Position numbers and translations under genes: made by a program
In this document: piece after piece, positions 18,799 through 55,130 of the stretch
How the letters are laid out: each line of letters begins with the position of its first letter
Numbering within the stretch: position 1 is the first letter of the stretch
Notes under the pieces: generated by a model
What the model was told of the DNA's origin: nothing
What the model saw: only the letters and a program-made list of their open reading frames with translations
Databases searched by the model: none
Origin: Haliotis asinina
Lineage: Eukaryota; Mollusca; Gastropoda; Lepetellida; Haliotidae
Assembly (NCBI RefSeq): GCF_037392515.1
Contig: NC_090280.1
Span: 23,875,118-23,939,117, forward strand
Length of the DNA: 64,000 nt
Direction: 5' to 3'

Positions 18799-19472
18799 TT
18801 ATACATTTTTCTTGTCCACCTCAGGCACCAGACAGGAGATGTGACTGTGAACTATTCCATTGATAATACCATCACTTCCATCTGGTGTAGGTGGCTTGCC
18901 CATCTTCAAGTACCCGTTAGGCTTCTTCAGCTCTCCCTGAGATGGAATATCTTCCAGTGTTTCTGGGTGTGTACACACCTTCTCACCAACTAACTTATCT
19001 TCTGTCTTTGCCATGTCAGAATCATCTGAAAAACTTTCACTTTTTGTGTCTGACACTGAACCAGAATTTCTATCATTTTTCCTTTTCCTCTTCCACTCAT
19101 TCCATCTTTTTGTATATTTCCTGATGGCATACTGAACAATGGCTATCCAGAACACCCAGCCTATAGCATAAATACACGCACCACCAAATCGGCCGAAGAA
19201 ATCAGTCGGCTGTTGAAAGTAGCAGTACAGAAGTACTGTCCCGACACCGATCCTTAACATGCCAAAGGACACCATGAACAATATGTCCACTATTTCCCCA
19301 ACAATGGTGTGGTACTGTCCTGTCTCTCGGAGAAACCAACGGAGCTGCAACAATGGGTTTGTGACTTCAGCGCCACAGATGGTGGCAACAAGCTCAGTGC
19401 CATACTTCCCTACAACCAGGCAGACCGTCAGTCCAAATATACTGAGAGCATGGTGGGCCATCATTGCTGGAC
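18799..19472 (-). CDS. TLCD5: TLCD5 terminal exon
   Basis: The acceptor is cgtttgtttcag (minus strand) and TAA is at 18801-18799. It encodes PAMMAHHALSIFGLTVCLVV through the basic and acidic C-terminal tail ending EVDKKNV. The His pair of AHH is the conserved TLC feature. Confidence 0.9.
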
Positions 19473-21602
19473 CTGAAACAAACGGGTAACCACGGTAATG
19501 CAAGACTGATTGTTATCTCTGGTATAATAGCTCACAGTGTCTGAGTGAGTGAGTATGGTTTTATGCTGCTTTTAACAATATGCCAGTAATATCACAATGG
19601 GAACACCAGAAATGGGCTTCACGCAATTGTACACATGTGAGGAATCAAACCCAGGTCTTTGGCATGATGAGTGAATGCTTTAACCACTTGGCTAACCCAC
19701 CAAACAGAGGATATTAGCACCTAACGTGAACCTCTTACATTCAAACAGGGCTGATCCGTTCAAACCAGCATTTTGAATTTTTACATCTATCCTAAGTGTA
19801 TTTTAACACAGACTACAGATCACAGAGATTGATCATGGTTAACAATATATATCGCTCATCAAGAACAAACACTCAGCAAAAATGCCTAAACAATCATAAT
19901 CTTGATTTAGAATCGGCCCATGGATAAAGATATTAGCGATCACACAATTTTTATACAGAAAATCATTAGCAATTTTTTTTTATCAGAGATGATTACCCAG
20001 TACTAGGACTGTTCTGACTAATTGTAATAAACAGCTGACGTCTGATTTCCCTGAAAACATAAAAACTCATTTCAGTCAGTCTGAAAGGGAGATAATCCCC
20101 TTGAGTATGGAAGTTATCTCCCGTAGACATCCTAGAATGCACTGACCCTCAGTTTTGAAGTAGAGACACCAGGAGAAGTCGAAGATGAAGTAGCCGAGGC
20201 AGATGGATGTCGTCAGGTATTGGAGCGGTGTGTTTGGGCCTCCTGTGGGAGAAGTTGTATTAGACACTGTTTAAAATAACTGCTGGCCCACAGGCTCAAC
20301 ACTGGTTGTTATTCTATCGGGCCCGGGGGCCCAGTGCCAGTTGTTATTGCATCGGGGTGGCAGTTTCAAATATTTGCAGGTCCTTATGGCTTTTAGTGAA
20401 TTTTCTGTTCATTTGTTTTTTCAACCACAATCTATCACCTATTATATTTATTAAAGTTAAAAAAACATCCATGATTCATCATATTAAAACAACTTCCAGT
20501 TCCACTTCCTGGTATTTCAGACATTGTGCATCACCAGTCTTTACTAAAATACAAATTTCTCTCTGCCCCTTAGTCTTTGCCATCTGATTTTGTAGATACA
20601 GTCTGAAACTGTGTTTCAGTGCAGTGTATTTTGTTTTTATTGGTTTGACTTTGACACAATGGGCCTGCAGATTTCATTCAGGGCCAGTAGATTTTAAAGC
20701 CTGCAGGTGGCAGCAGGCCCTCATGGCCAGTTGGCAAATTATAGTATTGCTAACACTGGTTCGACAGCAGATCCAATGAAAGAAGAATATTATGTGAGGT
20801 CAGCTAGCATGGACTGCACTATTTCAGGTACAGGGGGCCAGACACTGCACAATTTCAACTTTCTACTTTCATGGACAATTACTGAAGGACAGGTGAAACA
20901 ATTTCCATCTGTGGATTTATCTTTTGCATATTTTGTTTGTGCGTCTCCATTTGCTGTCACCGAAGATCTAGCAATATCATTACCTTGATAATGACAGATA
21001 TTACTGGATGCCTCACTGTTGTTCTTACACTACCTCTATAGCTGTCTTACTCTTAACACTAGACACAACAAATTGTAAAATACACTATAAGCTCTGTATT
21101 AACTCTTACACACAACAAAATTTAATATGCATTTTAAGCTGTCTTAATGATTCAACAAAACAATATGTCAAATGCTTTTTCAACTGTCATAATAATCATA
21201 CAAAACAAAACGTAACATGCATCCTAACCTCGGCATCAATACTTATGCACCACAAAATGTTAAATGCATTTTTAAGCTCTGACTTAATAATTATACAAAA
21301 CAAAACATAAAATGCACTTTAAGCTGTTTCATAAGTTGCCTGTTATGACTAGCAAACCCGAATAATCATGGGATTATAAATCAAGCAGCACTGCTATTGG
21401 AGTGATCCTGACCTGCATCAGTGAAAGGCCAGGGTCCTTGGATGAAGCTGCACCAGGCTGCTAAGGACGTGATGAGGATGGCATGAATAGCGGTGACGGA
21501 GCGACAGTGCCACTCACAACTCCGCCCTGGGTTGAGTCGACACAGCAGCAGATACAACAGTGTCCACAACCCCAGGCAGCACAGCACCAGCAACAGTGTC
21601 AT
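18799..21602 (-). CDS. TLCD5: TLC domain-containing protein 5 (TMEM136)
   Basis: Three coding exons: 21602-21413, 20242-20147, 19472-18799 (960 nt, 319 aa). All junctions are AG/GT and phase 1. The protein starts MTLLLVLCCLGLWTLLYLLL and shows the family blocks GPWPFTDAG, GGPNTPLQYL, LGYFIFDFSWCLYFKTEG, MMAHHALSIFGLTV, NPLLQLRWFLRETGQYH and MLRIGVGTVLLYCYF. Five or more hydrophobic segments fit a TLC fold in an internal membrane or the plasma membrane; the biochemical role of TLCD5 is poorly known. After the last membrane segment (QYAIRKYTKRWNEWKRKRK) there is a Ser/Asp/Lys-rich tail of about 90 residues, which makes it longer than the vertebrate proteins I recall (~245 aa). Identification is from remembered motifs, with TLCD4 as the nearest alternative. 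Confidence 0.9.
19540..19700 (-). repeat. SINE copy, reverse orientation
   Basis: tgagtgagtgagtatggttt, aacaccagaaatgggcttca, aggaatcaaacccaggtctt and gctttaaccacttggctaac. It lies in a TLCD5 intron. Confidence 0.88.
20147..20242 (-). CDS. TLCD5: TLCD5 middle exon
   Basis: The acceptor is cttctcccacag and the donor GAGG/gtcagt. It encodes GPNTPLQYLTTSICLGYFIF and DFSWCLYFKTEG, phase 1 on both sides. Confidence 0.9.
20285..20760. repeat. Dispersed repeat shared with 26806-27225
   Basis: Ordered shared blocks: ggcccagtgccagttgttat / ggcccagcgtcggttgttaa, aacttccagttccacttcct / aacttccagtttcacttcac, attttgtttttattggtttg in both, and gcaggtggcagcaggccctc / gcaagtggcagcaagccctg. Confidence 0.8.
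21040..21335. repeat. ~58-60 bp minisatellite in TLCD5 intron
   Basis: About five copies of a unit like ttaataattatacaaaacaa with aacataaaatgcactttaag ctgt. Confidence 0.85.
21413..21602 (-). CDS. TLCD5: TLCD5 first coding exon
   Basis: The exon starts at 21610, after the acceptor tttttgtgtttcag. The first bases, ATGTGACGATGACACTG, contain a start-stop pair (ATG TGA, 21610-21605) just before the chosen ATG at 21602-21600. The chosen start gives a hydrophobic N-terminal segment and then CRLNPGRSCEWHCRSVTAIH, as in the family. The donor is GCAG/gtcagg. Confidence 0.88.
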
Positions 21603-34974: not shown

Positions 34975-35095
34975 CTAAAGTCCATTCGAATTAGTGACGC
35001 CGTCGGTTCCAAATGCATTCCCGTGCTTCGAATACTCAATAACACCCGGAAATTGGCCAACACATGATGTTTATCTCCTAATTCGCACGCACGCC
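34975..35095 (-). repeat. Dispersed repeat of the 'ttggccaatttccgggtg' family
   Basis: The reverse complement reads aggagataaacatcatgtgt, tggccaatttccgggtgtta and gcacgggaatgcatttggaa ccgacggcgtca. Copies are at 45670-45755 and 47300-47425. Confidence 0.85.
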
Positions 35096-45669: not shown

Positions 45670-45977
45670 ATTAATTTAGGAGATACACATCATGTGTTGG
45701 CCAATTTCCGGGTGTTATTGAGTATTTGAAGCACGGGAATGCATTTGGAACCGACGCAGTGAATAGTCTTGCAGTTTCCGGGAATCTGATACCATTTGAT
45801 CATGTTTTTCAACCAATCAGATTACAGAACACAGTAACTTTGGGTTTACAATATTTGTTAAGTCTGTCAAAAATTGTCATTTATGACCACATATTGCCAA
45901 ATCAAGCAAAATAGATGTTGTGAAATTACTACCATTCGTTTTCTTATCTGAAATATACATTCAATACCAACAGAAAC

Positions 45978-46076
45978 TTATTACTCACCCGCTAAAGATA
46001 CAGAGACTACTAAACTAAACTATGATAACTTTGTAAAGCTGTTAAACAGTGATATCTTCAACGGGTGAGTAATAAA
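45978..46076. mobile_element. Small foldback, ttattactcacccg ends
   Basis: cttattactcacccg (45978-45992) and its reverse complement cgggtgagtaataa (46062-46075) flank about 70 bases. A related half, tgagtgagtaataaac with ctaaacagtg, is at 47597-47633. Confidence 0.6.
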
Positions 46077-47114
46077 TCACTGTTTAGTAATTAAATTTTT
46101 ATTGTGTTCATTAAAATTCTGGCAATCTGATTGGTTAACTGGGAACATTTCTTTTGAGTTCATTTCCCAATGAATCTGAAAAAAAATAAGCCACGCCCAC
46201 CGAACCGGACTACTTTCGGACCTGAGGAATGTCGGGGAATACCTTTACACAGCGAGGGAATTCCCTTGCACTCGGGTACCTTATTGAACTTTGGGTAAAC
46301 ACTGAAGTGATACATTGTGATTAACATAAACAAACAACTCAAAATTATCCGTGAACGTTAATAACGTTGCAACGCATCGACAAGAGCATGAGCACGATGG
46401 AACATCAGTTCATGGCATCGCAATCCCAGTCACATCACACCCTCTTTCTATTTGCGCAAATACTACAATCTCAGTTCCACTAACTTCATATCATCGGGCT
46501 TCATTTCCAATTCTCACTTTTCAAACTGTCTCTTTCAGTTCGCAGGTAGTATTTCAAACGTTTGAACTTAAAACTTTGCCGATACCGGGACGCGTCACGT
46601 TGAGTTGTTCCACCCTGATTCGCCGACCGATGTTAGCTTGGTTGACTGACGGCTGTTTGGGGGTGCTGTATGCTGATTGGCTAATGGTTTGGTTGGCGTG
46701 TCATTTTATGTAAATAAGTCACCTGAGTCATGTCACGCCATTACCGAATTCTTACACCGAAAATGTTAATCGGTGGTAACAAAGACATCTGTTTCGATGA
46801 ATGTGATTATGTTTAAAGAAAATAAAGTTGTTGAAAGGTATAGTATTTGTTTGCTGAATTTAATCATAAGGATTGAGAGTGTTTTTCTTTCGTTTCATTG
46901 AAGTATGAAACTAAAAACCAATGTGCAAACTTTTGTAAGAATCCGCTAATCCTTAAATAATTGTACATTGTGTATTGTAAACCAAAAGTTACTGTGTTCT
47001 GTAATCTGATTGGTTGAAAAACATGATCAAATGGTATTAGATTCCCGGAAACTGCAAGACTATTCACTGCGTACTGACACGTAAACAATTGTTTTACTGT
47101 GTCATCAACAGTGG

Positions 47115-47474
47115 TGACGTCATTCAAATCATATTGTGACGTAAAGTTAGAATGACGTCACAAATGAGCAACTCCAGATGCTACAATGGGAACCAGCTGA
47201 TACGGCCAGCTGATGACACTTCACTGCTGTACCCCTACTCGATGTAAACGAGTGCAGACAGTAAAACCCCTTTTCTTTACTTTTTTGTTTACAATGTCGA
47301 TAAACATCGTGTGTTGGCCAATTTCCGGGTGTTATTGAGTATTTGAAGCACGGGAATGCATTTGGAACCGACGGCGTCAGCCGGAGGTTTCAAATGAAAT
47401 ATTCCCGTGCTTATGTTTATCTCCTAAATAACATCGCGTGATGTCGTATGTATGACGTCAAAGTTATGACGTCA
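47115..47474. promoter_or_regulatory. Cluster of four perfect CRE octamers
   Basis: TGACGTCA occurs at 47115-47122, 47153-47160, 47453-47460 and 47467-47474, with a near match TGACGTAA at 47137-47144. CREB/ATF-family factors bind this palindrome. No adjacent gene is recognised. Confidence 0.5.
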
Positions 47475-47842: not shown

Positions 47843-49204
47843 TACTCATGGAAAAATTTAAGGGAACGCATGTTTCTTTGGGCAATTCAATATTTCTGTT
47901 TACTAACTTCAGCGTCGTGTATTATCGTTTTCGTGAAGAGCAGTTCACTCAAACTCACCATAATGCTTTCCATGCATGTGCACTACATGCTCCTAAAGTT
48001 ACATGCACTTAGATTTACACGTGACGTGTATGTGCACTGTCAAACACAACGGTTAAAAACATTGTTAACATGGCGAGACAGTACTTAACTTTGGCACAGA
48101 AATGGGAGGCAACTGGCATGGTTAATGGTGGAAGCTCATTAGGACAGGTTGCAACAACTTTTCACAAATCTGTTAGCGTGATATCCAGACTTTGGAATCT
48201 CTATAGAGCGACTGGTGACGTCAAAATGAGGCGTGGTCGGGGACGGAAAAAGAAAACCACCCCACGGGATGACCGGACCCTACTCCTTATTGCTCTGCGA
48301 GACAGGTTCAAATCATCCTCCAAAATCAATACGGAATTCAGGCGAAGAACAAACGTCAGAATTTGTTCATGTACAGTGCGTAATCGTCTTAAATCGGCTG
48401 GTCTAAAAAGCCTCAGTCCATTGGCTAGAATCAACATGACTGAGCAACACAAGCGCTTGAGACTGCAGTGGGCACGGAACCGTGGATGAAGAACCGTACG
48501 TCAATGGAGAAACACCATGTTTAGTGATGAGAGCAGGTACACACTTGACCATAATGACGGTCGAATTCGAGTTTGGAGACGCGTTGGGGAACGTCACAGT
48601 GCCTGCACCATTAAACAGCATGATCATTTTGGAGGGGCTCTGTTATGGTGTGGGGCGGGTTTCCCTTTAACCACAAAACAGATCTTGTGCGTCTTGATGG
48701 CAGGATAACAGGTGTACGATATCGTGATGAGATCTTGAACCCGACTGTGATCCCTTTTGCGCGTACAGCAAGTCGAATGTTCGAGTTCCAGCATGACAAT
48801 GTCCGCCCTCACATCGCTCATGTTTGTCGGGACAGACTGAGGGCTGCAGGTGTCCGGGTGTTGCAATGGCCGGGTAAAAGCCCTGATCTTAACCCCATCG
48901 AACATCTTTGGGATGTTCTTGGCCGCAATGCTCGGGACAGACCTGTTCAACCCAACAATTTGGATGAACTTTTCGTGGCTGTCCAGGAAGAATGGCGTAG
49001 AATTCCGATTGGTACCATCCGTACACTCATTCGCAGCATGCCACGACGATGCCAAGCAGTTCTCCAGAGACATGGGGGACACACTCGATATTGATTTTCA
49101 TCACTTGACATAAGCCTTTTCGTCTGTATGATCTTTTCTCTTACTGTTTCAAAGATTAAAAGTCACGGCTATTTCATGCGTTCCCTTAAATTTTTCCATG
49201 AGTA
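47843..49204 (+). mobile_element. Tc1-like (DD34E) transposon, full length
   Basis: Perfect 30 bp inverted repeats: 47843-47872 starts tactcatggaaaaatttaag and 49175-49204 is its exact reverse complement. It is flanked by TA at 47841-47842 and 49205-49206, the Tc1/mariner target. The element is 1362 bp with one broken transposase gene. The identical ends suggest fairly recent insertion. Confidence 0.95.
48070..49094 (+). pseudogene. Tc1 transposase, one stop and one frameshift
   Basis: It starts MARQYLTLAQKWEATGMVNG, with an N-terminal helix-turn-helix (SLGQVATTFHKSVSVISRLW), a basic hook RRGRGRKKKTTP, then FSDESRYTLD, FQHDNVRPHIA and SPDLNPIEHLWDVLG, and ends HGGHTRY. The spacing between the second Asp and the Glu is 34, so DD34E. 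A TGA at 48487-48489 interrupts the frame just before the first catalytic Asp. A frameshift near 48640-48650 (in the family's V-M-V-W-G-G segment) moves the rest to another frame. It is inactive as it stands, but only lightly decayed. Confidence 0.93.
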
Positions 49205-53332: not shown

Positions 53333-53450
53333 GGGCCCTTATTCTCGAAACGTTCGTAGCCGTAACAATTCTTAACTTTTATCGTAGCCAATGTGTTAAG
53401 AATGGGCTTAAGAAGTTCGTAGGGCTACAAACGTTTCGAGAATAGCTAGC
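53333..53450. mobile_element. Hairpin MITE (CTCGAAACGTTCGTAG), near complete
   Basis: gggcccttattctcgaaacg with ttcgtagc pairs with gggctacaaacgtttcgaga atagct. The inner arms are aattcttaac / gttaagaat. Confidence 0.8.
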
Positions 53451-53544: not shown

Positions 53545-53735
53545 ATCAAACATGTTCCGTATCTGACAAAATGACATGTCTATAAAAAGGGTAATGTTGC
53601 CTCTCTAAACTGGGCTGAACCCATTCCGTACCTGAATGAATGACATGCTGACATAGCCTCTCTGACTGACTTGGACTGAACACGCTCAGCACCTGACAGA
53701 ATGAGATGTCAAGGAGAAAAGATTGCATATCTGCA
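53545..53735. repeat. ~64 bp minisatellite, left part
   Basis: ctgacttggactgaacacgc, tcagcacctgacagaatgag and atgtcaaggagaaaa. It continues at 54769, so the array is split by the long inverted repeat. Confidence 0.85.
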
Positions 53736-54768
53736 GGCCCCCCTAAGTAATTGAAGGAATTACAGCAAATTTGAAGGAATTGCATCTCAAATGTAAACAA
53801 ACGCAGCCCACTCGCGAAACAATTGCAGCGATATCGGTAGTTTAGCGGTAATAACAGAAATACATCGGCCCTATCGGAAGCAATGTCGGTAATACTGGAA
53901 ACACGATCGGCCATCTTCGGAGATTTTTCGGTCGCGAGCGGAAACTCACGCAGCAAAACATGGCGTCGTTGGAAGAAGCGCCCGTCTCGGTGAGATTTGT
54001 TTTTAGTTCCTACTATTACATTTTCATACTTATCCATCTTTGACCACCCGCGTTGAATGCGTTTAGGTATGAGGTGTTGTCGGGGCAATAGCTTATGTTT
54101 TTAGGAAAAGATTGTCACTGCAGAAGAGTGTCACAAGTCATGCCCCTGGAGATTGTTTACATCTGAACATCGAAGTCGTGCCGATGATTACGAACATCAT
54201 GAACGTGCGCCATGAAGAAGTTTATGAGCCATAATTTTTCTTGCTACGAAGTGCAATTGACAAATTTAAACACATTTTACAAAAAAAATGATGTTATATC
54301 TGGCGCACGTTCGTAATCATCGGCACGACTTCGATGTTCAGATGTAAACAAACTACAGGGGCATGACTTGTGACACTCTCCTAGAGTGACTATCTTTTCC
54401 TAAAAACATAAGCTTTTGCCCCGACAACACCTCATACCTAAACGCATTCAACACGGGTGGTCAAAGATGGATAAGTATAAAAATGTAATAGTAGGAACTA
54501 AAAACAAATCTCACCGAGACGGGCGCTTCTTCCAACGACGCCATGTTTTGCTGCGTGAGTTTCCGCTCGCGACCGAAAAATCTCCGAAGATGGCCGATCG
54601 TGTTTCCAGTATTACCGACATTGCTTCCGATAGGGCCGATGTATTTCTGTTATTACCGCTAAATTACCGATATCGCTGCAATTGTTTCGCGAGTGGGCTG
54701 CGTTTGTTTACATTTGAGATGCAATTCCTTCAAATTTGCTGTAATTCCTTCAATTACTTAGGGGGGCC
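53736..54768. mobile_element. Long inverted-repeat element (arms 477 and 468 bp)
   Basis: 53736-54212 and 54301-54768 are near-perfect inverted copies around an 88 bp loop. The 9-base arm length difference is one internal indel (gaacatcatgaacgtg versus gaacgtg). Outer ends: ggcccccctaagtaattgaa. The visible differences are few and include CpG-type transitions (cccgcgttg/cccgtgttg). No transposase is seen. Confidence 0.93.
53960..53989 (+). other. First-exon-like segment in left arm (mirrored at 54544-54515)
   Basis: caaaacATGGCGTCGTTGGAAG ends in GTCTCG/gtgagatt, reading MASLEEAPVS before a consensus donor. It is preceded by the promoter-like word cggccatcttcgg. The same segment sits on the minus strand of the right arm, so the two face each other. 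No protein family is recognised. Confidence 0.35.
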
Positions 54769-55130
54769 TGTCTGAAAGACTTGGACCGAACACGCTCAGC
54801 ACCTGACAGATTGTCGTGTCCAGGAGAAAATGTAGCCTGTTGGATTTATACCGAACATCTTCAGCACTTGTTCAGTAATGTGTTCCCTGTGTGACTGACT
54901 TGGACTGAACACGTTCAGCACCTGACAGAATGACATGTTAACGGGATAACGTAGCCTCTCTGACAGACTTAGACTGAACACGCTTAGCACCTGACAGATT
55001 GACGTGTCCAGGAGATAATGTAGCCAGTTGGATCAGTAATGTGTTTAAGAAATATTGCAGCCTGTCCCACTGGCCCAGACTCAGCTCGTTCTGCCTCTGA
55101 CACATGACGTATCCACGAAGTACCTGAGCC
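54769..55130. repeat. ~64 bp minisatellite, right part
   Basis: gacttggaccgaacacgctc with agcacctgacag recurs near 54793, 54858, 54919 and 54982, with diverged copies to about 55100. Confidence 0.85.

Follow-up and report, generated by a model that had tools for sequence, protein, structure and literature searches.

A gene-like 1-kb palindrome in Haliotis asinina is very probably a foldback transposon of a dispersed non-autonomous family

Introduction

Target site duplications (TSDs) are about 8–11 bp long in Mutator-type foldback transposons and 8 bp long in the P superfamily; in hAT transposons, they are usually 8 bp long, and the ends usually start with CAG. Galileo, a member of the P superfamily in Drosophila, is described with 7-bp target sequences and includes non-autonomous 2T copies that consist of two long terminal inverted repeats (TIRs) and a short middle, along with solo TIRs and nearly complete transposase copies (PMC3573991). 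Tetris, a non-autonomous foldback element of Drosophila virilis with internal tandem repeats and 8–10 bp TSDs, is known from three complete copies, and no autonomous partner is reported to have been found (PMC4079207). In maize, Mu killer, a derivative of MuDR present at one locus, has both ends from one gene-bearing end of its parent, with the 5' part of the gene inverted, and silences that parent; hairpin RNA is proposed as the means, and antisense transcripts are also offered (PMC3440606). The TIRs of the lancelet ProtoRAG, which generates 5-bp TSDs, carry CACTATG and are described as having promoter activity, with transcription regulated by a GCCATCTTG element (PMC7481187). The CACTA-Chapaev-Transib group is characterized mostly by CA..TG ends and by 2–5 bp TSDs, and hAT5, in which membership rests on the transposase, by 5-bp TSDs (PMC12730594).

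Here we describe a 1-kb palindrome in the abalone Haliotis asinina, within a stretch of 64,000 nucleotides (contig NC_090280.1, positions 23,875,118–23,939,117; hereafter, the window). We consider it very probable that this palindrome is a non-autonomous foldback DNA transposon from a family of several hundred, inserted into a minisatellite. It is likened to the 2T copies of Galileo by anatomy but differs in having 5-bp TSDs and in that no coding copies were found. With Tetris, it shares the non-autonomous foldback organization with no autonomous partner found, and it differs in TSD length, in copy number, and from the internal tandem repeats of that element. As in Mu killer, both ends would come from one gene-bearing end of a parent, an origin that we infer for the Haliotis element; whereas Mu killer is a single locus with demonstrated silencing, the Haliotis family comprises hundreds of copies, for which silencing is putative. 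ProtoRAG is similar in its 5-bp TSDs and in its GCCATCTTG element, to be compared with GCCATCTTC in the Haliotis arm, but the Haliotis element carries CAGGCCC in place of CACTATG, and the promoter in its arms is a candidate. The 5-bp TSD is also shared with hAT5, whereas the transposase that defines hAT5 is missing from the Haliotis element.

Anatomy of the palindrome

The inverted repeat recognized in the preliminary description is genuine (Table 1); it begins with CAGGCCCCCC and finishes with GGGGGGCCTG, each end being located 2 bases further out than originally described. Aligned over 53734–54210, the two arms show 458 identities, with 10 substitutions and a single gap of 9 bases. This identity (458 of the 468 aligned positions) is much higher than chance could produce. 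Nine of the 10 substitutions fall in the inner part of the arms (9 of 179 aligned positions vs 1 of 291 outside; Fisher p 0.001). Given that the arms account for 949 of the 1037 bases, the element consists almost wholly of long TIRs. No transposase is present inside the window copy, which contains the arms and the loop only, the frame in the right arm being 123 aa long. The ATG frame and donor-like motif noted previously are indeed found in both arms as mirror images, and the long RNA duplex that had been claimed agrees with the predicted fold of the element alone, a single long hairpin (−901.8 kcal/mol, an energy given without shuffle comparison for this sequence of more than 1000 bases).

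Table 1 Features of the palindrome and of the surrounding tandem array (window coordinates).
Feature	Position	Strand	Basis
Inverted repeat, 1037 nt	53734..54770		
Left arm, 479 nt, begins CAGGCCCCCCTAAGTAATTGAAGG	53734..54212	+	Arm self-alignment
Loop, 88 nt	54213..54300	.	Arm self-alignment; first 32 bases searched in genome
Right arm, 470 nt, reverse complement of left arm	54301..54770	-	
TSD, left copy, TCTG (ATCTG assuming the usual 5 bp of the family)	53730..53733	.	Flank comparison
TSD, right copy, TCTG, one base below the usual 5	54771..54774	.	Flank comparison
ATG frame MASLEEAPVS, then donor-like GTGAG at 53990	53960..53989	+	Sequence, genome matches
Mirror of ATG frame, right arm	54515..54544	-	Sequence, genome matches
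GCCATCTTC, one base from the GCCATCTTG element of ProtoRAG ends	53910..53918; mirror 54586..54594	+	Sequence; PMC7481187
Tandem array of ~69-bp units (target), left part	53549..53733	.	Repeat analysis, flank joining
Tandem array of ~69-bp units (target), right part	54771..55033	.	Repeat analysis, flank joining

A dispersed family with target site duplications

We searched the assembly that contains the window (1,143,192,487 bases in 159 contigs). The 24-base end of the element yielded 1132 matches (560 + 572) at up to 2 mismatches, and the first 32 bases of the loop yielded 364 (183 + 181) at up to 3 mismatches, against 0 for the control in each case. The further arm copies and foldbacks with identical ends that the preliminary description suggested looking for are thus abundant, and the loop matches would mean that the genome contains about 360 loop-bearing elements. 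A 565-base query returned 1169 first-look candidates, and all 40 that were scored cover the left arm and the loop at 99–100%; having been selected by likeness to these parts, they give biased estimates of the mean divergence and of the difference between left and right arms. Among the 39 copies fetched, 36 are full-length, and three (L019, L045, and L046) are truncated. Every one of the 36 full-length copies has CAGG..CCTG ends and a perfect TSD outside CAGGCCCCCC...GGGGGGCCTG, of 5 bp in 33 copies and of 6 bp in three. Judging by the flanks, 33 of the 36 are independent insertions; three copies have one flank pair in common and two copies another, so that the rest are segmental duplicates. 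With 36 full-length, TSD-bearing copies on many contigs, an assembly error, previously named as a potential refutation, is unlikely.

The first ends listed on C1, which were selected for a perfect 24-base match, represent 30 loci, with 14 distinct copies that span the element, four of them already in the set. Among the ten further copies, a TSD is present in eight (5 or 6 bp) and absent from L063 and L069. The TSD sites are AT-rich (G+C 27% over 41 TSDs). Separately, five loop copies in one orientation, the first four 57–58 kb apart, are located in C6:4883577-5150254, perhaps as parts of a large tandem duplication in which the element is included.

The window copy resides inside the ~69-bp tandem array, with TCTG on both sides. 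When the flanks are joined with TCTG kept once, they align without gaps over 58 nt to a neighboring tandem unit; because the joined flanks restore a repeat unit, we conclude that the palindrome entered the array by insertion. Joined 35-base flanks score 70 when 4 or 5 bases are dropped vs 56 when none is, whereas for 30-base flanks, keeping TCTG once rather than twice brings little gain (51 vs 49, and 46 vs 46), the right side alone being aligned when TCTG is kept twice. The TSD of the window copy is 4 bp long, not 5, which would be consistent with the loss of one base from a 5-bp TSD. This 4-bp TSD, the two TSD-free copies among the ten from C1, and the small gain with 30-base flanks all count against the transposon reading. 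Beside the target array, at 53340–53444, there is a short palindromic element of MITE-like appearance, with 25-bp inverted ends that are 92% complementary.

Single origin and conversion between arms

Divergence from the consensus averages 0.88% over 38 aligned copies, which were chosen by similarity, and ranges from 0.4 to 5.2% in the C1 copies. In ten copies compared, up to 5.2% away from the consensus, the same loop is found with only a few differences. Because the loop is common to copies even at 5% divergence, the foldback has a single origin and was inherited afterwards, and it predates the insertion in the window.

Across 48 copies, we identified 171 private arm variants, 22 of which are mirrored in both arms, compared with about 0.36 expected by a rough formula that assumes independent hits; the mirrored variants are found in six copies (L048, L054, L063, L064, L065, and L071). 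This excess of mirrored variants, observed while the loop is common to the copies, points to conversion of the arms by each other. Mismatches between the arms number 257 of 13776 positions in the outer part vs 439 of 8391 in the inner part over the 48 copies; for the ten C1 copies by themselves, the counts are 70 of 2773 and 80 of 1595, respectively. The preliminary description offered a young inversion or gene conversion as the cause of arm similarity; conversion gains support from the 22 mirrored variants among 171, whereas a young local inversion is contradicted by the TSDs and by the loop common to copies that differ by about 5%.

The gene-like stretch of the arms

The arms include a CpG-rich stretch with an observed-to-expected CpG ratio of 1.47, compared with 0.58 for the window; this value is reached by 12 of the 1275 sliding windows, four of which are within the element itself. 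Together with the ATG frame and the donor-like GTGAG, this stretch makes the locus look like a local inverted duplication of the first exon and promoter of a host gene, either young or kept alike by conversion, as originally proposed. Such an event at this site is exceedingly improbable because hundreds of dispersed copies with TSDs contradict it and identify the palindrome as a mobile element. Moreover, the stretch with the promoter, ATG, and donor belongs to the dispersed element: the exon-like 35-mer, from the ATG to the donor, has 787 genome matches (391 + 396) at up to 3 mismatches, with 0 for the control. The diverged ends L053 and L060 have lost the ATG by deletion, and the ATG/donor stretch is no more conserved than its surroundings in the biased sample of copies compared. 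No intact gene with this first exon, as had been suggested, was encountered; among the perfect 35-mer copies that lack a partner, one was read, and it proved to be a fragment of the right arm (97.9% identity to the right arm vs 94.6% to the left), ending at about arm position 451.

The gene-like stretch is therefore probably a passenger that came from the 5' end of a parent transposon, although it possibly derives from a host gene. In the latter case, as in Pack-type elements, a transposon would have captured a host promoter and first exon, and the arms would come from a host gene rather than from the parent. The gene-like features within the arms agree with such a capture, and so do the outermost 79 bases, which are the least variable (0.58%, in copies chosen by left-arm likeness) and are the only part of the element matched by the solo end L074. 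We nevertheless regard this origin as unlikely, given that no host gene with the exon was seen and that the sole unpaired perfect exon copy read is the right-arm fragment.

Search for a parent element

In the stretches read, we found neither an autonomous copy nor a transposase with such ends, which likewise counts against the transposon reading. Candidate parent ends were rejected on inspection: in L053, the arm is cut short beside LINE-like frames (identified by eye), and L060, L066, and L074 are solo or truncated ends, with no transposase frame recognized by eye in about 4 kb more of sequence at L060 and L066 or in 1.5 kb at L074. A search with L074 recovered only itself and foldback ends among the 40 scored of 841 candidates. 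The only pair of perfect ends 1.85 kb apart among the matches listed (C1:21727735-21729585) belongs to a foldback that contains about 0.8 kb of additional DNA. In the diverged solo end L060, at 1040–1110, the inner part of the arm folds back on itself about CATGCCCCTGG, leaving a short loop; an additional strand switch, independent of the first, may have taken place here.

The genome contains 134 hAT matches. A scan of 30 of these with 1.5-kb flanks revealed one end-like match, a truncated foldback beside another hAT. Comparison of 131 hAT matches with 197 element places (196 from the listings plus L101, which was roughly placed and whose proximity to a hAT had been noted beforehand) gave three pairs less than 6 kb apart and none at 6–60 kb, which would be more than expected by chance. 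L101 is a truncated arm that starts 164 bases past the end of the homology of that hAT family; the C9 hAT has a 3' boundary, CAGGGCTCTACGG, in common with a C4 copy and unlike the ends of the element. The foldback near the C2 hAT has both ends. A hAT parent remains a candidate.

Exact patterns had no match in viral or prokaryote contigs, blastn against phages and Rfam likewise gave no match, and a literature search on CAGGCCCC with transposon words retrieved nothing relevant, as judged by title. The mobility enzyme is probably borrowed from another element.

The main role of the family might alternatively be to silence the source of its transposase through hairpin RNA, in the way that Mu killer silences MuDR. 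The predicted long, near-perfect hairpin would suit this role, and Mu killer, as described, combines two ends from the transposase-gene end with an inverted piece of the gene (PMC3440606), but the parent, hence the target, was not found and spread by transposition alone explains the anatomy; we consider this role highly unlikely.

Other features of the window

At 48025–49094, the window contains the relic of a Tc1-like transposase, with matches to HTH_Tnp_Tc3_2 and DDE_3 in two separate frames. The region 45676–47379 includes a 100-bp inverted repeat (45754–45853 and 46973–47072, 98%); a sequence of ~80 bp is present at three places, in this region and at 34995–35081, at 97%, and, with the inverted repeat, perhaps represents another young element. 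A frame on the minus strand at 18799–19512 encodes a TLC domain (PF03798, E 4e-11).

Discussion

The long-TIR make-up, the dispersed TSD-bearing copies, and the lack of a transposase inside are those of a foldback (two-TIR) non-autonomous transposon. Because the TSDs are 5 bp long, Mutator-type and P-type foldbacks and the usual 8-bp hAT are disfavored: neither the Mutator-type length nor that of the P superfamily or Galileo was found, all 36 full-length copies having 5–6 bp. Transib and ProtoRAG agree in the 5-bp TSD, but the ends of the Haliotis element lack a CAC-type heptamer; hAT5 agrees in the TSD as well. The combination of CA..TG ends and 5-bp TSDs would be compatible with hAT5 or with a lineage resembling CACTA-Chapaev-Transib.

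We propose that a transposase supplied in trans would recognize the ends, excise the element, and insert it with a 5-bp stagger, as suggested by the TSDs. The foldback form probably goes back to a strand switch in which one terminus of a longer parent, including the promoter and first exon, was the template for the opposite terminus; the form arose a single time, as shown by the common loop, and the element was amplified afterwards. Conversion between the arms keeps them alike, with hairpin or gap repair as a candidate route. The mobility of the family refers to past insertions, and present activity is putative. A more far-reaching scenario, which we hold to be quite improbable, sees the family as several hundred Mu killer-like hairpins scattered over the genome and made from promoter and first-exon sequence of their own vanished parent. 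Their transcripts would be ready dsRNA, so that the family could repress the source of its enzyme as it spread and might have led to the extinction of the parent.

The foldback transposon reading implies that a palindrome with the appearance of a gene is a mobile element of an ordinary kind. In this high-copy family, some of whose members are young, conversion between arms becomes countable, and foldback families can seed rearrangements and hairpin RNA.
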